This document shows positions 1,850-61,640 of a stretch of DNA of 64,000 nucleotides, piece after piece. This DNA is from Candidatus Gastranaerophilales bacterium (GTDB lineage: Bacteria > Cyanobacteriota > Vampirovibrionia > Gastranaerophilales > Gastranaerophilaceae). Where the stretch lies: NCBI GenBank assembly GCA_944325835.1, contig CALVBO010000002.1, forward strand, positions 124,001 through 188,000, written 5' to 3'. Each line of letters opens with the position of its first letter. Position 1 is the stretch's first letter. The notes beneath the pieces are model-generated. The model made no database searches. It saw only the letters and a program-made list of their open reading frames with translations, and was not told where the DNA came from. Both the position numbers and the translations under genes were made by a program.

Positions 1850-4800
1850 ATGGCAGTAAAAACTATTTGCCCAAACGCAGGGCAGCAGGAATGTATTAAG
1901 ACTTTAAACGGCCCCGTCATGGTGCTTGCAGGCCCGGGAACAGGGAAAACCTTTACCATAATTCAGCGTATAAAATTCATGATTGAAAGCGGCATAGCAC
2001 CGGATTCCATACTTTGCCTTACATACTCCGAAGCCGCCGCGAATGAAATGAAAGCGCGGCTTGTAAAAGAAATCGGAACCGTCGCTTCCTCCGTCACCAT
2101 CCACACCTACCACGCGTTCTGCAACGAAATTATCCGCCAGAACCCTATGGAATTTGAACTGCTTGACGGCGTCGGACTGGTTGACGACATTACAAAACGC
2201 ACGCTTATGAGCGAAACTATTGACGAAGTCAAACCGAAATTTTACAAAACCAAATGGGGCGACAGCAAATATTTTATCCCCGAGCTTCTCGGAGCCGTCG
2301 ATGAGATAAAGAAAAATCAGGTCACAAAAGAAGATTACTTCAACACACTTCAAAACCACCCGCAATGGGGCGGCAAAATGAAAGAACTTGAAGAAGAATA
2401 CAAAACCCGCGAAGAAAAAGGCAAACTCGTCAAAACTTTCCTCAACTCCTACGAAAATCATAAGAAAAAACTCGGCAAAGCCCGCGAAGCATGGGAAATT
2501 TTTGAAAAATATGACATCAAACTCAAACAAAACAACTTCATTGACTTCAACGACATGATTAACCTTGTTCTTGAAACCTTTGACACAAATGAAGATTTTC
2601 TCAAACACGTGAGCGCAAAATACCGATACTTCCTTGTTGACGAATATCAGGACACAAACTATGCACAGAACAAAATCGTTTTCAAACTGGCGCAGGGCGC
2701 GGGCTGTGATAATATTTTCGTTGTCGGGGATGATGATCAGATAATCTATGAATTTCAGGGCGCCAAAACCGACACACTCGCGAAATTCCTTTCACTCTAT
2801 CCGGCAACAAAAGTTATATGCCTGAATGAAAATAACCGTTCAACCCAGAATATTCTGGATTTCAGCTACGGAGTAATCGCGCAGGACGAAACACGCCTTG
2901 AATTTAACCCTCAATTTGCCTCCTACGGAATTAATAAAAAACTCATTGCAAAAAACGAAAGCATCAACGCTAAAAATAAACTAATTCAACTGCACAGCTT
3001 TGCAGACATCAAACAGGAAAACAATTTTATCGCAGACGAAATCGAAAAGCTGTCAAAAGCCATGCCGGATAATCTTTCGCAAATCGCTATTCTAACACGC
3101 GAAAACGGCGAATTGATGAACTTTGCAGAACTTCTGGCCGCCAAAAATATTCCGTTCCAGATTAAATCAAGCAAAAGTATCTTCGGACTAAAACCTTCAA
3201 TCCTCATATATTTTTACCTGAAAGCGCTGGAAAATCACGAGCTTTACGCAGACAAACTCTTCGGGCTTTTGATTTCCAAACCGTTTGATTTTGAACTTGC
3301 CGATTACAACTTTTTGCTGGAGCAAAACAGACTTAACCACCTTGATTTTATTGCGAATTTGCGGCTAAACCGTGAACACGAATGGGTTAACAGGGAAAAA
3401 GTTGAAAACTTCCTGACAACTTTTGAATCCCTCAAAGATTATAAATCCGCCGAAACCCTCAAAAATCTTATCGTTGCGGTTATCAACAGAACCGGACTTT
3501 TAAAATATTTTGTAGAAAACGAAGTCAACCGCGTTGAGAATGTTTTTGCAATAAAACGTATCGTTGATGAAGCGCAGGCGTTTATGAATCTGCACGAAAG
3601 CGCATCGCTTACAGACTTCATAGCTCACCTTGATATGGCTTTTGAAAGCGGAATACCTATTACAATCGACAAAGACGAATACACCCAGAACGCAATCCAG
3701 CTTGTGACTCTTCACAGCGCAAAAGGCCGTGAATTTGAATACGTTTTTATGCCAAACCTCATTGCAAAAAAATGGGAAGGCAAACGGGTTATAAATTCAA
3801 CTTCTCTGCCAATTTCACACGAAGAAATTGATGAGGACGCCCGCCGGAAATCCGAACAGCTGCGCCTTCTTTTTGTCGGAATTACAAGGGCAAAACATTC
3901 ACTTACTCTGTCGTTTTCAAACACAATAGACGGCAAGCCGCAGGAATTGACCTCTTACCTTTCACGCGTAATCCAAAATTCCGCACCGGTGGAAGAGTTT
4001 AACCACGAACTTACACGCGAAGATTACACCTTTGAAATAATCAAAAGTCTTACGCAAAACAACTTTGATTATAAAAGCGCATTCAGGGATGAACTTTTCG
4101 CCCGTATTAAAGACTTTATTCTAAGCCCGAGCGCGCTAAACACCTATCAGGCATGCCCGCGCAATTTTCTCTATACATATATCCTGCAAATTCCAATCTA
4201 CAGCGGGGAATGGGACAGCGCAAATTATGGAAAAGCGGTGCACAAGACACTTGAAATTTCAATGCAGATTGCAAAAGAAACCGGCTCTTATCCAAATCAA
4301 GAGGAAGTTTGCGAACTTTTCAAAAAAAATCTTTCTACACAAAAATTTTCCGATGCGCAGAAACGGAGTCAGTTCAGTGAGCGCGGGGAGAAAAAACTTT
4401 CCGAATTTTACCCGAAATTTACGGAAATTCCGCCGGAAAGAGTTTTCGCAACCGAATATTTCCTGAATTTCGTTCCTGTGGAAAACTATTTTATAAAAGG
4501 TTTTATCGACAGAATTGAGCAGAATTCTGACGGAACATATTCACTCTACGACTATAAAACGGGCTCAGCCAAGCGAAAAACCCAAATAGTTGACGGCGGT
4601 GATTACGAAAACTACCTGAACCAGCTGCGCTTTTACAAATTTGCGTTTGAAATTCAAAATAAAGGCGCAAAAGTAACTGACGCCGGCTTGATTTTTGTAG
4701 AGGAACCGGCTGAAAACTTCTACACAAAGCTAACCGAAGCTGATAACGAAATCATCAAAGAAAAAATACTGGACACCTACAAAAACATCCACGAGCTTAA

Positions 4801-4876
4801 CTTTGACCCGCAGGAAGGAAACGAAAAGGTTTGCGCAAACTGTGAATATCGTCAATTATGCAAATTGGTCTTGTAA
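1850..4876 (+). CDS. UvrD/REP-family helicase fused to RecB-like nuclease
   Basis: This 1008-residue protein is a superfamily 1A DNA helicase with a C-terminal PD-(D/E)XK nuclease. Visible motifs in order are Walker A AGPGTGKT (27-34), the DExx box DEYQDTN (about 264), VGDDDQIIYEFQGA (motif III), LVTLHSAKGREFEYVF (motif V) and RLLFVGITRAKHSL (motif VI). The nuclease part has GFIDRI and DYKTGS (about 885-905), with one Cys in YQACPRNF (about 768) and CANC plus LC at the C-terminus. That Cys pattern is the AddB/RecB-type Fe-S staple. It probably acts in double-strand-break processing. GAGGAG lies 5 nt before the ATG, and TACAAT about 20 nt upstream may be its -10 box. No AddA/AddB partner is adjacent. 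Confidence 0.9.
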   Translation: MAVKTICPNAGQQECIKTLNGPVMVLAGPGTGKTFTIIQRIKFMIESGIAPDSILCLTYSEAAANEMKARLVKEIGTVASSVTIHTYHAFCNEIIRQNPMEFELLDGVGLVDDITKRTLMSETIDEVKPKFYKTKWGDSKYFIPELLGAVDEIKKNQVTKEDYFNTLQNHPQWGGKMKELEEEYKTREEKGKLVKTFLNSYENHKKKLGKAREAWEIFEKYDIKLKQNNFIDFNDMINLVLETFDTNEDFLKHVSAKYRYFLVDEYQDTNYAQNKIVFKLAQGAGCDNIFVVGDDDQIIYEFQGAKTDTLAKFLSLYPATKVICLNENNRSTQNILDFSYGVIAQDETRLEFNPQFASYGINKKLIAKNESINAKNKLIQLHSFADIKQENNFIADEIEKLSKAMPDNLSQIAILTRENGELMNFAELLAAKNIPFQIKSSKSIFGLKPSILIYFYLKALENHELYADKLFGLLISKPFDFELADYNFLLEQNRLNHLDFIANLRLNREHEWVNREKVENFLTTFESLKDYKSAETLKNLIVAVINRTGLLKYFVENEVNRVENVFAIKRIVDEAQAFMNLHESASLTDFIAHLDMAFESGIPITIDKDEYTQNAIQLVTLHSAKGREFEYVFMPNLIAKKWEGKRVINSTSLPISHEEIDEDARRKSEQLRLLFVGITRAKHSLTLSFSNTIDGKPQELTSYLSRVIQNSAPVEEFNHELTREDYTFEIIKSLTQNNFDYKSAFRDELFARIKDFILSPSALNTYQACPRNFLYTYILQIPIYSGEWDSANYGKAVHKTLEISMQIAKETGSYPNQEEVCELFKKNLSTQKFSDAQKRSQFSERGEKKLSEFYPKFTEIPPERVFATEYFLNFVPVENYFIKGFIDRIEQNSDGTYSLYDYKTGSAKRKTQIVDGGDYENYLNQLRFYKFAFEIQNKGAKVTDAGLIFVEEPAENFYTKLTEADNEIIKEKILDTYKNIHELNFDPQEGNEKVCANCEYRQLCKLVL

Positions 4877-4899
4877 ATATTTTTTCAGCATAGTAGAAT
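4871..4899 (+). promoter_or_regulatory. Ancestral promoter of tRNA-Leu array
   Basis: TTGTAA, 17 bp, TAGAAT, followed 6 nt later by the first partial copy of the tRNA-Leu 5' end (4906). The same 6-nt gap separates TATAAA from the intact tRNA start at 5185. Confidence 0.5.
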
Positions 4900-4905
4900 A
4901 TGTAT

Positions 4906-5184
4906 GTCTGGGTGGCAAAATAATCGTTGAAAATTTAATATAAATATTATGTCTGGGTGGCACTCTGCCGAGAAAAACGATTAAGTATCGTTTTTCGAGA
5001 GGGTGCGAAAGCACTTCCGCCACCGTGGATGCTAAAACAATCGTTGAAAACTTAATATAAACATTATGTCTGGGTGGCACTCTGCCGAGAAAAACGATTA
5101 AGTATCGTTTTTCGAGAGGGTGCGAAAGCACTTCCGCCACCGTGGATGCTAAAACAATCGTTGAAAACTTAATATAAACATTAT
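4906..5184 (+). repeat. tRNA-Leu 5'-end duplications carrying a hairpin module
   Basis: The first 11 nt of tRNA-Leu (GTCTGGGTGGC) occur at 4906, 4951 and 5068 before the intact gene at 5185. The 117-bp units 4951-5067 and 5068-5184 are identical. Each holds the tRNA 5' end, then the module ACTCTGCCGA-hairpin-CGAGAGG, a GTGC-GAAA-GCAC hairpin, TTCCGCCACC (reverse complement of tRNA nt 7-16) and an AT-rich promoter-like stretch ending TATAAA plus 6 nt. GGTGGC and GCCACC would close a three-way junction in RNA or extruded DNA. Confidence 0.9.
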
Positions 5185-5266
5185 GTCTGGGTGGCGGAAT
5201 TGGTAGACGCGCACGATTCAGGTTCGTGTGGAGAGATCCTTGAGGGTTCAAACCCCTTCCCGGACA
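5185..5266 (+). tRNA. tRNA-Leu (CAG)
   Basis: The 82-nt gene folds with a 7-bp acceptor stem (GTCTGGG with CCCGGAC, discriminator A), a D arm, and an anticodon arm CACGA-TTCAGGT-TCGTG giving anticodon CAG. It also has a variable arm and a T arm with TTCAAAC. CCA is not encoded. It is the only complete copy after three partial 5' copies. Its proximal promoter is TATAAA ending 6 nt before the first base. Confidence 0.93.
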
Positions 5267-5274
5267 TTTTTTAT

Positions 5275-5620
5275 GCCCGAGAAAGACTCGGCTGAGCCGT
5301 AGTCATATTTGCAACAAACGCTAACATAAGCATATAAACACAATGGAGAAACCACTCAATGCCGAGTCTTTTGAGTGGCACTCTGCCGAGCAAAACAATC
5401 CAGTGAATTGTTTTGCGAGAGGTAGACAGCACTCTGCCGAACAAACGATTGAGTATCGTTTGTGAGAGGTAAGCAGGTTGACCTGCGTTACCCCGCCTGA
5501 CAAATCAAAGATTAGAAACGGCGGTGATATTATGCTCGCCTGCTCCCCTCGTTCCCACGAGGTGACACTGCGAGCATCGGCTTACGCTTTGAGCAGGGCA
5601 AGCAGGCGACGAAGAACTGC
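5275..5620 (-). mobile_element. Long composite repeat element (class II)
   Basis: Reading the minus strand, the 346-bp element starts GCAGTTCTTCG (5620) and ends CTTTCTCGGGC (5275). It contains a CGCCTGCT/AGCAGGCG hairpin, a CCGCC/GGCGG hairpin, and two tandem ACTCTGCCGA modules at about 5380 and 5430. The 7-mer TTTTTAT occurs on both flanks (5268-5274 and 5621-5627), as expected of a target duplication. It sits between tRNA-Leu and the 3' end of the gamma-CA gene. No protein gene of its own is visible. Confidence 0.8.
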
Positions 5621-27241: not shown

Positions 27242-28587
27242 ATGAAACGACGCGAATTTATTATAAACTCTGCGCTTGCAATAGGCGGTACCGCCCTATT
27301 AACCGGCTGCGGGGAGAAAAAAATTATTTTATCCGAAAAACCAGATTGCAAAACGCAAATATAAAGATATAGAAGTTCCGTTGCTGGGGCTTGGCTGTAT
27401 GCGGCTTCCGATGAAAGGTGATGAAGTCGATATGCAGGAACTCGAAAGAATGGTCGAATACTGCATGCAGCACGGTGCAAACTACTTTGATACCGCATAT
27501 ATGTACGTTGACGGGAAATCCGAAACCGCTGTCGGCAAAGTGTTAAAAAATTATAACAGAAAAGACCTTATCATTGCGGATAAAAGCCCTGCGATGTATA
27601 TAAAATCAAAAGATGATGTCAGAAGAATTTTTGAAGAGCAGCTGAATAAAGCAGTTCTCCGCCGCACCGCCTCGCTGAACCGCGAGCCGTTAGCGGCTGC
27701 GCTGTCTAATACGCCACTCAAAAGACTCGCTTGCGTGAGCGGGAGTTGCTTCGCAACTCATTCACGCCACGTTCCTTATCGCGAGTCTTTCTCGGACAAA
27801 AAAATGCCAGACAGATTATTTTGACTTCTATATGGTTCATAATATTAATAAAAATACAATAGATAACTATCGTAATTATGATATGTTTAATCAGTTAATG
27901 GAGTTTAAAAAAGAAGGCCGCGTCAAATATGTAGGATTTTCGTTCCACGGAACACCTGATATGCTTAAAGAAGTTGCCCCTGAACACCCGTGGGATTTTG
28001 CCCAGCTCCAGATTAACTATCTTGACTGGGATGTTGTTAAGGCAAAAGAACAGTATGATATCGTTCAATCACACAATATTCCTGTAACGGTTATGGAACC
28101 GCTGCGCGGCGGCGGGCTGGTTAATTTGAGTGAAAAAGCGCTCGCGAAATTAAAAGAATACTATCCTGACACCACCCCTGCGGCTTTCGGCTTAAGGTGG
28201 GCTGCCAGCAGGAAAAATGTTATCACAGTATTAAGCGGAATGAGCAATCTGCAGCAGGTTAAAGAAAACATCCAGACTTTTATCAACTATAAAGATATGG
28301 ATGAAAAAGAAAATCTTGCAGCAAAAGAAGTTGCAAAAGTTATCCAATCACAGGGTGAAATCAATTGTACAGCATGCAAATACTGTATGGAAGTTTGTCC
28401 GAGAGGTATAAATATTCCGGCGATATTTTCCTTGTATAATCAATATAAGACCACAGGGAATAAAATGCTTTTCTCCATTTACTACAACACGCTGGATGAA
28501 AGAGAAAGAGCTGATAAGTGTATAGCCTGCAATTTGTGTAATACGAACTGCCCGCAGGCGCTGCGGCATTCTGGGCATTTAAAAAAA
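27242..28587 (+). pseudogene. Tat-exported aldo/keto reductase with Fe-S domain, disrupted
   Basis: The gene starts MKRREFIINSALAIGG (twin-arginine signal, then LTGC lipobox) behind AGGAGG. It then shifts frame near an A7 tract (27317-27323); removing one A restores KRKYKDIEVPLLGLGCMRLP. The reductase continues to EEQLNK, where a 147-bp repeat element is inserted at 27651. It resumes as CQTDYFDFYMVHNINKN and ends with two Cys clusters (CTACKYCMEVCP and CIACNLCNTNCP). A second element follows directly at 28588. With both lesions no full-length enzyme can be made. The parent family are periplasmic NAD(P)H-type oxidoreductases with ferredoxin tails. Confidence 0.85.
27651..27797 (+). mobile_element. 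Repeat element (class I, 147 bp) inserted in aldo/keto reductase gene
   Basis: GCAGTTCTCCG...CTTTCTCGGAC, with all stems seen in the 26337 and 59247 copies. The interrupted codons are recognisable on both sides: AATAAA before, and AAAAAAA-TGCCAGACAGAT after. The reading frame stays open through the element for 49 codons, then is shifted by one on exit. Confidence 0.9.
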
Positions 28588-28913
28588 GCAGTTCTCCGTC
28601 GCCTGCTTGCCCTGCTCAAAGCGTAAGCCGATGCTCGCAGTGTCACCTCGTGGGAACGAGGGGAGCAGGCGAGCATAATATCACCGCCGTTTCTAATCTT
28701 TGATTTGTCAGGCGGGGTAACGCAGGTCAACCTGCTTACCTCTCACAAACGATACTCAATCGTTTGTTCGGCAGAGTGCTGTCTACCTCTCGCAAAACAA
28801 TTCACTGGATTGTTTTGCTCGGCAGAGTGCCACTCAAAAGACTCGCTTGCGTAAGCGGGAGTTGCTCCGTAACTCATTCACGACACGTTCCTTATTGCGA
28901 GTCTTTCTCGTAC
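28588..28913 (+). mobile_element. Composite repeat element (class II, 326 bp) between two broken genes
   Basis: Starts GCAGTTCTCCG, has the CGCCTGCT/AGCAGGCG and CCGCC/GGCGG hairpins, and two inverted modules (TCGGCAGAGT at about 28768 and 28820). It then carries the GAGTTGC-type 3' half and ends CTTTCTCGTAC. Runs of 7 and 6 A flank it. The left half is like the 5275 and 43247 copies and the right half like the class I copies. Confidence 0.85.
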
Positions 28914-29741
28914 AAAAAAGCGAAAAAAGATTTTAACAAAGAAAGTATTTTACCGACAATCGCGTTGACTTCATTTGTCTTTGCGCTGCAGATGATTAAT
29001 TTTTCCGTTCCAACAACCGCCTCAAGCGGCCATATCGTCGGCGGGCTTTTACTTGCGGCACTGCTCGGACCTTATGCCGGCTTACTTGCAATCTGTTCAA
29101 TCTTGCTGGTTCAGGCCGTATTCTTCGCAGACGGCGGCTTAATGGCTCTGGGATGCAACATTTTTAATATGGGCTTCCTTGCCTGCTTTGTTGCGTATCC
29201 TTTAGTCTATAAACCCCTTGCTGAAAACAGACGCAGCGCATTCGGTGCGATATTAGCATCAATTGTTGCGCTCCAGCTCGGCTCAATTGCCGTTGTAGCA
29301 GAATCCGCACTGTCAGGTTCTACAAGTGCTAATATCGGATTATTCGCAAGTTTAATGCAAAGTATTCACCTTGCAATCGGTATTGTTGAAGGTGTATTCA
29401 CTGCCGCAGTTATCCTGATTGCGCAAAGAACACAGCTTTCAAAAGAGTTCTCTTATACAATTTCTGCGTTGTCATTGATTCTTGCAGGAGTAATCTCACA
29501 GTTTGCATCTCCAAAACCGGACGGGCTGGAATGGTCACTGATTAATATGTCCGACTCCTTTGTTGCGCAAACTCAAGGTTACATATATTCGATATCCGAA
29601 TTAATTCAATCCAAAGCCGCAATCCTGACACAAATTCCGTCAGTTTTGGCGAACATAGGCGGACTGGTACTTCTCGCAGTACTCATGTTTGCTCTTTGTA
29701 AACTTTTAACGGCAAAAAAAGTACCTGCTTATGAAAAATAA
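28914..29741 (+). pseudogene. CbiMN/LarMN-type metal ECF permease, N-terminus lost
   Basis: From KKAKKDFNKESILPT the protein follows CbiM (MINFSVPTTASSGHIVGGLL, FFADGGLMALGCNIFNMGF). It ends with a CbiN/PDGLE part (PKPDGLEWSL), so it is a fused nickel or cobalt energy-coupling-factor permease. The usual start with MHIPDG-type residues that bind the metal is missing; the repeat element stands in its place. An ORF from TTG 28764 reads through the element into the gene, but no ribosome site supports it. It overlaps larE by 11 bp, which suggests nickel supply for LarE's cofactor. Confidence 0.8.
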
Positions 29742-33264: not shown

Positions 33265-33378
33265 CGGAATGTAGCACTCTGCCGACGAGAACGATTAAGT
33301 ATCGTTCGAGGAGAGGTGGGAGCGCTCTGCGAAGCAGGCGCTACCAAGCTGCAAATAACAATTGAATATAAAATTTAT
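33265..33378 (+). repeat. tRNA-Pro 5'-end duplication carrying the hairpin module
   Basis: The first 11 nt of tRNA-Pro (CGGAATGTAGC, 33265-33275) run straight into ACTCTGCCGA, the hairpin GAACGAT/ATCGTTC and GAGAGG. A second hairpin CTGC-GAA-GCAG follows, then GCGCTACCAAGCTGC, the reverse complement of nt 11-25 of the same tRNA. A promoter-like TATAAA plus 6 nt then leads into the intact tRNA. GTAGC and GCTAC would close the structure. Confidence 0.88.
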
Positions 33379-33452
33379 CGGAATGTAGCGCAGCTTGGTA
33401 GCGCACCGTGTTCGGGTCGCGGGGGTCGCAGGTTCGAATCCTGTCATTCCGA
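33379..33452 (+). tRNA. tRNA-Pro (CGG)
   Basis: 74 nt: acceptor CGGAATG/CATTCCG, discriminator A, D arm GCGCAGCTTGGTAGCGC, anticodon arm CCGTG-TTCGGGT-CGCGG (anticodon CGG), T arm CAGG-TTCGAAT-CCTG. No CCA is encoded. TATAAA (33367-33372) ends 6 nt before the first base. Confidence 0.94.
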
Positions 33453-33458
33453 TTTTTT

Positions 33459-43206: not shown

Positions 43207-43235
43207 ATGATAAACTAAAGTGTACCTTTTGTCAA
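43207..43235 (-). promoter_or_regulatory. Promoter of higBA (leaderless)
   Basis: Minus strand TTGACA (consensus), 17 bp, TATCAT (43207-43212), 6 nt, ATG. The -35 box lies 12 bp from the edge of the repeat element. Confidence 0.8.
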
Positions 43236-43246
43236 GGCGATATAAA

Positions 43247-43564
43247 GCAGTTCTCCGTCGCCTGCTTGCCCTGCTCAAAGCGTAAGCCGATGCTCGCGGT
43301 GTCACCTCGTGGGAACGAGGGGAGCAGGCGAGCATAATATCTCCGCCGTTTCTAATCTTTGATTTGTCAGGCGGGATAACGCAGGTCAACCCGCTTTCCT
43401 CTCACAAAACAGTTCACTGGACTGTTTTTCTCGGCAGAGTGCTGCCTAATACGCCACTCAAAAGACTCGGCCACTGAGTGGCTACCCCATTTGGTTCATA
43501 CGCTTTAGGTAGCGATTGACACAATTATGGCTCCGGCTCAGCCGGGCGCGAGTCTTTCTCGGAC
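43247..43564 (+). mobile_element. Long repeat element (class II, 318 bp) with 7-bp target duplication
   Basis: Starts GCAGTTCTCCG and ends CTTTCTCGGAC, bounded by ATATAAA on both sides (43240-43246 and 43565-43571). It carries the CGCCTGCT/AGCAGGCG hairpin, one inverted module (TCGGCAGAGT) and a middle part unlike other copies (ACTCGGCCACTGAGTGG and CGGCTCAGCCG). It fills most of the gap between higB and sepF. No coding gene inside. Confidence 0.87.
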
Positions 43565-43574
43565 ATATAAAAAT

Positions 43575-43591
43575 GGCGGTCTGTGACCGCC
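43575..43591 (-). terminator. Terminator after sepF
   Basis: Minus strand GGCGGTC-aca-GACCGCC followed by ATTTTTAT. The gap 43592-43676 holds nothing else recognisable. Confidence 0.75.
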
Positions 43592-43676
43592 TTTAAAATT
43601 CCAAAATCTCTCTTCCTTATTAAATGACCCAATATGGAGTCCCGCCAATATCCAAATATGGAACCGGTTCAACCGG

Positions 43677-54867: not shown

Positions 54868-56030
54868 AGCGTTTAACACATTGTGCTGATATATCACCGG
54901 TTTCATCTTTGAACACAGAACCCATTACACCTGCATTACCGTTAAGTTGTATAATTCTGTTTGCACTGCCGGGTGAGGAGCTTGTATAAAACTGCATTGT
55001 AGATATATTGGGAATAAATTTTTTGTTAACCCACAATGAAATTGCTTCCTCCTTATTTGGCAGCCTTGCATCGTCCTGTTCACGGCAAAATTTCACAGCA
55101 TCATCATAATAACCGGTTTTAGTTTGATAAACAGGCATCGGGCTGACAACATTTGAGTCAAAAGAATACAACGCCGTTATAAAACCAACATCTTTACCTA
55201 CAGTATTCGGCCCTTTAGAACCGTTAAGGTCATAGATAAAATTTGCACAAATCAAAGGCGAAACAATATATGCCGTAAGCCTTTCTTCTGCCCCGCGGCA
55301 AGAAGGATTGTAGTAGACGACCAAACTTTCGCCGTTCTGTGTTTCAAACGCAGCCGCTTTGGCATTAATCATAGAATGCGAATCTAATGACAGACCGGCA
55401 TAAGAAGCATTAATCATTTTGGAATTTAATTCTAACCAATCAAGCGGCAGGTCGACCGCAGAACCGGTTGTATTAATGCTGCTTACAATACCGCAATCCT
55501 CAAGGTGGTCACTGTCACAAATATTATTAATCTTAAGCACCTTAGCCAGACCATCTGTGATAAAAGTTTCAGCAGCAGTGTCCACTGCATCACTTGCGCC
55601 GGAGGAACTGTCTTCCGTCAGTGTTCCGTAGCCGTTAAGTGAAGGCATAAGCGCGATTGCCTGTGAAAATCTTGCATAAAGAGCTTTTCTTTGCGTGTTC
55701 CAGGTGCGCTCGTTAATGTTTCCCGTCAGTGACGGAAGCGTTATCGCCGCCACCACGCCGATTATCGTGAGGGATAATAATATTTCTGCCATGGTAAATG
55801 CTATTCGACGTCCGTGAGCCCGTAAACCAATTATGGCTCTCGACTCAGTCGGTGTCATTCCGAACTTGTTTCGGAATCTGTCCGGCGACACCGGTAGTTC
55901 GCAACACTGGTCAGATGCTGAAACGAGTTCAGCATGACATGGGGAACTTACGACCTCAACTCCTAATTGGGCGGATAAAGCCGGCCCCCCCCCCCCCCGT
56001 GCAAATTGTTACATTCCTCTGTTTTTTCAT
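54866..56030 (-). CDS. Prepilin-like protein with poly-G leader (frame OFF as sequenced)
   Basis: The body has a prepilin helix FTMAEILLSLTIIGVV, a conserved LNGSKGPNTVGKDVGFI segment and a C-terminus QCVKR, like the 60.6-kb paralogue. The only start with a ribosome site is ATG 56030 (AAAGGA 7 nt upstream); its leader MKKQRNVTICT enters a G14 tract. G13 would read straight into the prepilin frame. G14 stops after about 14 further codons at TGA. An internal GTG at 55891 opens the body but lacks a Shine-Dalgarno site. The leader also contains a dispersed palindromic repeat (55853-55939). Probably a phase-variable surface or pilus-associated protein. Confidence 0.8.
55853..55939 (-). repeat. Dispersed palindromic repeat inside prepilin leader
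   Basis: Contains CATGCTGAACTCGTTTCAGC and ATTCCGAAACAAGTTCGGAA, both self-complementary, joined by a variable centre. It reads in frame with the prepilin body (CHAELVSASD...DRFRNKFGMT). The 15424-15511 repeat is related. Confidence 0.7.
55985..55998 (-). repeat. G14 homopolymer tract
   Basis: Fourteen consecutive G on the coding strand, 32 nt after the leader ATG. Such runs mutate by slipped-strand mispairing and switch the reading frame. Confidence 0.9.
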
Positions 56031-60574: not shown

Positions 60575-61640
60575 TTAACGTTTGACGCACCGCACCGCGA
60601 GGTTGTCAATAGTCATGTGGTTCATAACCCCTACTGAGAACTTGACATACCACGCTTCATCAATGGAAGATGATAAAGAAGATGACCAGTACCTATCCTG
60701 TGTCATATTACCGATTAAATTTTTATTGATGAACAAAGCCCCCAGTTCTTCTTTTGACGGCATCCGGTAGTCGCTATCCTGATTTTTACAAATACCGCTT
60801 ACATCATCCATCGCAACAGCCGTTGATGCATCATTAGGCTGTGGATACGGTGCAACTATCAAACTGTCCGTCGGATAAAATACCGTAATAACACCCATAT
60901 CTTTGCCTATTGTATTTGGGCCCTTGTTGCCATTTAAATCATAAAGGAAATTAGCACACATTTTCTTCTGCACATAGATATAATTCGGCTCGGCTAAAAG
61001 CGTTGTACAGCGCGGATTATAATAAAGTGCAATACTTTCGCCGTTTGCAGTTTCAAATGCGGCGGCTTTGGAATTAATCTGCGAATAAGAATGCATACCA
61101 CCAGAACCGGAAGTCCAAACTACAGATACCGAGGTATTCAAAGGATTTAACGCTTCAAGGTCAATCGGGAAATCCATCTGGCTGCCTGCAAGAGTCGTAA
61201 CTTTTTCCGGCAAACCGCAGTCATCGAGGTGTTCATTATCACAAATATTATTAATTTTTAAAACCTTTGATAATCCGCCGGTCAAGAAAGTTTCCGCGAC
61301 ATTATCCACACCGTCGCCGGCGCCGGGAGATGATTCCTCCTGCAGCGTACCATAACCGTTTAAAGAATCCATTAACGGTATTGCCTGTGACAAGCGGGCA
61401 TAAAGCGCTTTTCTCTGCGTGTTCCAAGTGCGTTCGTTTATGTTGCCGGTAAGTGACGGAAGCGTTATCGCTGCAACCACACCGATTATCGTGAGGGATA
61501 ATAAGATTTCTGCCATTGTGAATGCTAAATTCTTGCTCGGATTCAATTGTGGAAGTCGCTCAGCGGCCGACTCCTCAATTGTGCCTGTTAAGAGAGGCCC
61601 CCCCCCCCCCTGATAAAATCCTTACATTTCGATTTTTCAT
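60575..61640 (-). CDS. Prepilin-like protein with poly-G leader and DUF1566-like end (frame OFF)
   Basis: The body has FTMAEILLSLTIIGVV, then NINERTWNTQRKALYARLSQAI, GPNTIGKDMGVI and a DUF1566-like end RYWSSSLSSSIDEAWYVKF...VRCVKR. The start with a ribosome site is ATG 61640 (AAAGGA 8 nt upstream). Its leader MKNRNVRILS enters G13. G12 would continue as GGGG-PLLTGTIEESAAERLPQ into the prepilin; G13 stops at TGA seven codons after the tract. An internal TTG at 61546 lacks a ribosome site. Close paralogue of the 54.9-kb gene. Confidence 0.8.
61598..61610 (-). repeat. G13 homopolymer tract
   Basis: Thirteen consecutive G on the coding strand, 30 nt after the leader ATG, in the same position as the G14 tract of the paralogue. 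Confidence 0.9.

Follow-up and report, generated by a model that had tools for sequence, protein, structure and literature searches.

An intact tRNA-Leu(CAG) gene in the 64-kb window (the whole stretch of Candidatus Gastranaerophilales DNA that was analysed) is preceded by three copies of its own 5' end, GTCTGGGTGGC. Two of these copies belong to 117-bp units that are identical in sequence, and each unit continues with a module, here called M, which is followed by a GTGC-GAAA-GCAC hairpin and by TTCCGCCACC, where the beginning of the tRNA D-arm appears in reverse complement (Table 1). A sequence-only reading of this stretch had described this anatomy correctly, but had added a duplication of the tRNA promoter, which is not there: the locus has a single sigma-70-like promoter on the + strand, and this promoter lies outside the units. 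What recurs between the units is a leader containing TTGAAAACTTAATA, 12–25 nt upstream of the tRNA start, whose likeness to rRNA boxA we take to be greater than its likeness to a promoter. This boxA-like motif is enriched before tRNAs with partial upstream copies, being found at 37 of 110 such tRNAs versus 8 of 76 others. Among Leu units the second hairpin changes in sequence and keeps its pairing.

The window also holds features that the earlier reading had overlooked, namely the same architecture at a tRNA-Pro gene (33265–33352) and the modules downstream of the tRNA-Leu gene and elsewhere that are listed in Table 1, as well as a dispersal of the module throughout the genome. Eight full M modules were counted in the window against 0.00 expected in shuffled sequence, so the modules here are not due to chance. 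A large palindromic repeat, TGTCCGAGAAAGACTCGC...GGCGGAGAACTGCTTTATT, is dispersed through intergenic regions: it is found at positions 5270–5610, 28560–28960 and 43230–43600 and at about 30 other sites in the genome, often directly after terminators, and is host to up to two modules. Runs of 13–14 C were also seen at 55983–56024 and 61596–61637, in similar regions and with direct repeats nearby at 55490–55789 and 61214–61513; these runs suggest phase-variable tracts.

Table 1. Features of the tRNA-Leu(CAG) and tRNA-Pro(CGG) loci and other modules in the window
Feature	Position	Strand	Basis or remark
Sigma-70-like promoter, TTGTAA-17-TAGAAT, the only one of the locus	4871–4899	+	Outside the units; position shared with empty relatives (L181, L187)
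tRNA-Leu 5' copy 1, nt 1–11	4906–4916	+	Native start; without module; probable deletion remnant
boxA-like leader motif TTGAAAATTTAATA	4927–4940	+	Motif enriched before tRNAs with partial upstream copies
tRNA-Leu 5' copy 2, unit 1	4951–4961	+	Sequence identity to tRNA start
Module M copy 1, ACTCTGCCGA-hairpin-GAGAGG	4962–5002	+	Covariance model, 71 bits, E 1.8e-15
Second hairpin GTGC-GAAA-GCAC, unit 1	5003–5014	+	Sequence
TTCCGCCACC, antisense of tRNA D-arm start, unit 1	5015–5024	+	Reverse complement
boxA-like leader motif, unit 2	5044–5057	+	
tRNA-Leu 5' copy 3, unit 2	5068–5078	+	Sequence identity to tRNA start
Module M copy 2	5079–5119	+	Module pattern and covariance model
Second hairpin and antisense D-arm, unit 2	5120–5141	+	
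boxA-like leader before intact tRNA-Leu	5161–5174	+	
Intact tRNA-Leu(CAG)	5184–5267	+	tRNA and Rfam tRNA match
Two tandem modules in dispersed intergenic palindromic repeat	5379–5469	+	Pattern and covariance model
Two tandem modules, further copy of the dispersed repeat seen at 5379–5469	28739–28828	−	
Partial 5'-end copy of tRNA-Pro(CGG)	33265–33275	+	
Module M, tRNA-Pro unit	33276–33316	+	Pattern and covariance model
tRNA-Pro D-arm antisense GCGCTACCAAGCTGC	33338–33352	+	Sequence
Intact tRNA-Pro(CGG)	33378–33453	+	
Module M in dispersed repeat	43398–43440	−	

The hairpin module and its distribution

Module M is about 41–48 nt long and consists of ACTCTGCCGA, a hairpin and GAGAGG, with GC-ACTCTGCCGA at its foot. 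In an alignment of 28 modules, each of the 11 hairpin pairs has changed on both of its sides, with 97.7% paired versus 79.6% in shuffled sequences; the CTCT/AGAG pairing is invariant in this alignment because the search pattern required it, and a variant module at tRNA-Thr has CTCC/GGAG as its foot pairing instead. Among 139 distinct stems there are 24 G-U pairs against 5 A-C, and tandem G-A pairs are common; the internal loop GCCGA/GA could be read as k-turn-like. This asymmetry, together with the G-A pairs, suggests that the module strand acts in single-stranded form, either as RNA or as DNA.

The inverted tail of the units was considered as one side of a conserved RNA helix, the outer stem that the sequence-only reading had thought to be built from the tRNA's own sequence. 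When the tail is paired with the 5' copy of its own unit, it outdoes shuffled tails (z below -2) in no more than 23 of 109 units. Among cases with a diverged 5' copy, 7 have a tail that suits this copy better and 11 have one that suits the tRNA better, with 3 ties. The coevolution expected of such a helix was not found, and an outer stem of this kind is not general. We therefore regard the inverted tail as a by-product of insertion rather than as a selected helix, with reservations for the Leu units, in which the second hairpin has kept its pairing.

The exact pattern ACTCTGCCGA occurs 48 times in the genome from which the window comes, compared to none for the reversed control pattern, and a covariance model of the module gives 49 matches there, the majority of M copies lying in non-tRNA intergenic repeats. 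When the model was run against 386 genomes of the phylum, 168 matched; all of these belong to the family of the window (Gastranaerophilaceae) except for one from a sister family, and none of the 386 lying outside the order matched. The possibility that the module occurs nowhere beyond this locus, which the sequence-only reading had named as a refutation, is thus not borne out. A search with the exact pattern found the module in 68 of 116 relatives, with controls at 0 and a few additional matches in two sister families. Public records containing the module are nearly all metagenome-assembled genomes of Candidatus Gastranaerophilales or bacterial metagenome-assembled genomes without a finer label, and one genome (G135) carries many identical M copies at different sites. 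A tRNA-Met unit with the module was also seen in a contig titled Muribaculaceae (L087), which is probably a mis-binned Gastranaerophilales contig.

Insertion sites, polarity and turnover

Across all collected loci, 122 modules interrupt a partial 5' copy of a tRNA upstream of the intact gene, and the tRNAs concerned are Leu, Pro, Met-type CAT, Lys, Val, Ile and Ala. The insertion point in these sense copies is nucleotide 11 or 12 in 111 modules, nucleotides 18–20 in five and nucleotide 26 in six, all of the latter at tRNA-Ile. In the genome of the window the same architecture also precedes tRNA-Ile and tRNA-Val, and a variant module precedes tRNA-Leu(GAG). Units are about 90–136 bp long and form tandem arrays of up to four (L039, L131). 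Other M sites are antisense in tRNA T-arms and in 5S rRNA, or lie in intergenic palindromic repeats.

Where an intact target could be read, it is GC^GNA, with C before the insertion point in 40 of 48 cases, G after it in 41 and A at the third position in 42. This consensus partly mirrors tRNA conservation, because most of the readable sites are tRNA D-arms, but the non-tRNA repeats of the window's own genome give the same target. The module is sometimes found between the two Gs of the D-loop instead. Insertion usually replaces part of the target, since the tRNA sequence resumes after about 4–7 skipped nucleotides. Such replacement can also be seen within the genome, where copies of a dispersed repeat are either empty, GAGTGGC[GTAT]TAGACAGC, or filled, GAGTGGC[M]TAGACAGC; a second site in the same repeat is likewise filled or empty.

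The polarity of the insertions is consistent. The 10 nt preceding the module recur 3' of it in 132 modules, among them 106 that lie sense to a tRNA and 9 that lie antisense to one, and no convincing intact copy was found on the 5' side: the eight modules whose nearest copy is 5' adjoin other units, remnants or unrelated sequence. Nearly all nine antisense-tRNA modules lie at the tRNA 3' end, and there the tRNA terminator forms the flank that is duplicated (L122, L141, L242); antisense insertions in 5S rRNA behave in the same way (L040; L266, which is cut by a contig end). Sense insertions outnumber antisense ones by about 10 to 1. After the module, the sense stretch that is kept varies little from 12 nt. 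An inverted piece of the target between the direct copies is clear in Leu and Pro units and in units of a second module type (M2, see below), and is missing from many Val, Lys and Pro units.

We compared three tRNA genes across the seven genomes of the genus; the comparison is of species rather than strains, and insertion events were therefore not observed directly. Empty sites were found at Leu-CAG in G003, G004 and G006, at Pro-CGG in G004 and G006, and at Pro-TGG in G000, G003 and G004. The species with and without units differ from one tRNA to the next and do not form one consistent set, and at Pro-CGG the module has two different insertion points in different species. L193 and L194 form a clean pair of one filled and one empty locus: a native stretch of about 40 bp (-12 to +27) occurs twice in the species that has the insertion, and M lies in the outer of the two copies. 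In G005, the units of two tRNA-Pro genes (L202, L191) are preceded by a common leader, AAAAAGCG...GAGGTAAT...TTCC...GGAAC, which is probably structured. Dispersal of the module, polymorphism among sister species and exact local 5' copies at seven isotypes bear out the proposal of the sequence-only reading that a mobile or templated element inserts at tRNA ends and leaves the gene intact.

In order to relate duplication to insertion, we used a set of 33 tRNAs from the window's own genome, chosen regardless of M. Nine of these tRNAs have partial upstream copies, 11 in all, and ten of the 11 copies carry an insert in the D-arm: six have M, three the second module type and one a third type (M3), the exception being the remnant at 4906. 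A bare duplication does not, therefore, usually come first, and duplication and insertion look coupled. No tandem duplication free of a module was found at other tRNAs in relatives. The second type, CCCCAGCG...GAGCGTTCTCATAAT, occurs at tRNA-Lys and tRNA-Gly, and the insert at tRNA-Arg has only its 5' start in common with it; the third, AAGGACTCCGCGA...GTGGAGG, occurs at tRNA-Thr. Looked at individually, the loci of Lys-CTT (L203), Gly-TCC (L212) and Arg-ACG (L214) have a D-loop insert of the form GCTCAGTTG^CCCCAGCG...GAGCGTTCTCATAAT, unrelated to M and represented at Arg by its 5' end, within the same partial-tRNA architecture as for M. At Lys and Gly an antisense copy of the D-arm comes after this insert. 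The third type was seen as AAGGACTCC or similar at tRNA-Thr-GGT (L204) and at L041, L126 and L128.

A probable mobile hairpin and its alternatives

The observation at 4906–5267 is real, extends far more widely than its own coordinates and is unusual. Our interpretation, to which we give a probability of roughly 0.6, is that M is a small non-autonomous mobile hairpin of the Gastranaerophilaceae and close relatives that enters hairpin arms by a 5'-to-3', template-switch-like process. It enters in one orientation, whether at tRNA D-arms, antisense T-arms, 5S rRNA or intergenic palindromic repeats. In essential RNA genes its insertion goes together with a short tandem duplication of the gene's outer end and flank, in many cases also with a small inverted part of the target, which leaves a complete gene 3' of M every time. 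Most probably, a 5'-to-3' synthesis strand entering an RNA gene from outside would halt at the first hairpin arm, take in M with the M hairpin as donor and copy about 12 nt further; it may then add a short inverted copy made from the opposite strand, and would finally re-enter the template upstream and copy the whole gene. Unequal recombination could afterwards build tandem arrays such as the two tRNA-Leu units. We infer a template switch of this kind, during replication or repair, and a mobilizer that acts in trans; the switch fits the directional facts. Dispersal, target, polarity, replacement, polymorphism and coupling are shown by the sequences themselves.

Several observations sit less easily with a mobile hairpin. 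The strand asymmetry of the stem and its tandem G-A pairs would also fit selection on an RNA, the excess of sense over antisense insertions could reflect function or target bias, and the long presence of the module throughout the family could equally be due to domestication. Since M, M2 and M3 are all found at one D-arm position, M itself may be less important than the architecture. A mobilizing enzyme was not found either. A search for Y1 transposase (PF01797) gave no matches in G000, which is 99% complete, with control genomes positive, and reverse transcriptase is not co-distributed with the module, being present in 28 of 69 genomes and absent from many that are rich in modules (G011, G025, G029, G039). 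The use of one route by more than one hairpin module would imply a trans-acting system encoded by the host or by a phage. Phage as the main vehicle was rejected, as 109 viral contigs match the pattern and only one has a convincing hairpin. That one is a Mu-like phage contig (L302, IMGVR_UViG_3300011008_000426) with the module on the minus strand at 3448–3493, between structural genes; transfer between genomes by phage is therefore possible.

The main rival to the mobile hairpin, and the less favoured of the two, is a functional leader RNA. The units would be part of the tRNA transcript, and a conserved multi-branched fold would control the linked tRNA through its processing, antitermination or amount, the module serving as a conserved protein or RNA recognition motif. 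As the units lie downstream of the one native promoter and upstream of the tRNA, they should be transcribed, and the enrichment of the boxA-like motif at unit-bearing tRNAs, the RNA-like stem, the maintained pairing of the second hairpins in Leu units and the retention of units throughout the family all agree with such a role. We nevertheless consider it unlikely, because presence at a given tRNA is mosaic among sister species, most copies in the window's own genome lie in non-tRNA intergenic repeats, and there is no coevolution between the outer stem and the 5' copy of the same unit. The antisense copies at tRNA 3' ends and in 5S rRNA likewise argue against it, and against the small RNA driven from the tRNA promoter that the sequence-only reading had envisaged.

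It is somewhat less probable still that the units arose in two steps, with slippage giving partial duplications of tRNA ends and a hairpin that prefers GC^GNA then building up in the spare copy, insertions in the essential copy being lethal. The same module does occur in non-essential repeats without duplication of the flank, and the duplication separating L193 from L194 is a plain tandem copy of native sequence. However, bare partial copies should then be common, yet among the 33 tRNAs chosen regardless of M nearly all of them have an insert in the D-arm, and neither the constant sense stretch after the module nor the inverted target pieces would be accounted for. An ordinary local tandem repeat or assembly artefact without wider meaning, suggested by identical 117-bp units in a metagenome-type assembly that could be misassembled and by the many arrays at contig ends, is already refuted by the occurrence of the module in more than 100 independently assembled genomes, where its architecture recurs at many tRNAs.

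If M is a mobile hairpin, then a minimal hairpin has invaded essential RNA genes across a whole lineage and has consistently spared the gene. This would be a natural experiment in the movement of a hairpin without an enzyme of its own and in the tolerance of tRNA genes to insertions, and a possible route to a new DNA-mobilizing activity. For annotation, decoy 5' ends have to be expected upstream of tRNA genes, as they precede more than a quarter of those tested in the window's own genome.

Comparison with known systems

Several known families were set aside. A MITE of a DDE transposon would have terminal inverted repeats and a short fixed target-site duplication, while here 4–7 nt of target are replaced and the flank duplication is long and variable; the units are too short to hold the integrase gene of a tRNA-integrating genomic island; and the GTTRRRY core of an integron cassette attachment site is absent. 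Covariance models of Rfam 15 (T-box, riboswitches and others) matched nothing but tRNA, whether at gathering score or with E allowed up to 1. In the open-access literature, nothing relevant was found on repeats of Gastranaerophilales or on hairpin insertions in tRNA D-loops.

REP and REPIN elements with their RAYT (TnpA_REP) are, like M, small extragenic palindromes with a strand-asymmetric hairpin. REP/RAYT elements have a GTAG or CGTC tag at the foot of the hairpin (PMC3733652). M has neither tag, its foot being GC-ACTCTGCCGA, and its genome has no Y1 transposase, and we rejected this assignment. The mitochondrial double-hairpin elements and repetitive hairpin-forming elements are also mobile hairpins of intergenic and RNA-gene regions, with variable stems that keep their pairing, but M differs from these in its bacterial chromosomal location, its conserved foot sequence and the duplication of tRNA ends. 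The Rickettsia palindromic elements (RPE) and similar mini-elements resemble M in being short, dispersed, palindromic, non-autonomous, restricted to a lineage and located inside genes. M too is a lineage-wide dispersed palindrome within genes, RNA genes being those covered here, and its likeness to RPE is drawn from their general description; M is set apart by the duplication of the invaded gene end with the intact gene 3', by its specificity for D-arms and T-arms and by its GC^GNA target.

Those units that have a short inverted piece between two direct copies resemble the tandem inversion duplications that arise by template switching at palindromes and, like them, arise at hairpins, but in the M units a specific hairpin of a dispersed family sits in the outer copy. 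Integrative elements that target tRNA genes also enter the gene and rebuild it in complete form; M does so without integrase or cargo, in units of about 100 bp, and can use either end of the tRNA. Taken together, we tentatively suggest that M may be a new kind of mobile element, a bare hairpin without transposase or known ends that enters the first hairpin arm of a tRNA or 5S rRNA gene from either side, with a polarity that rebuilds the gene.
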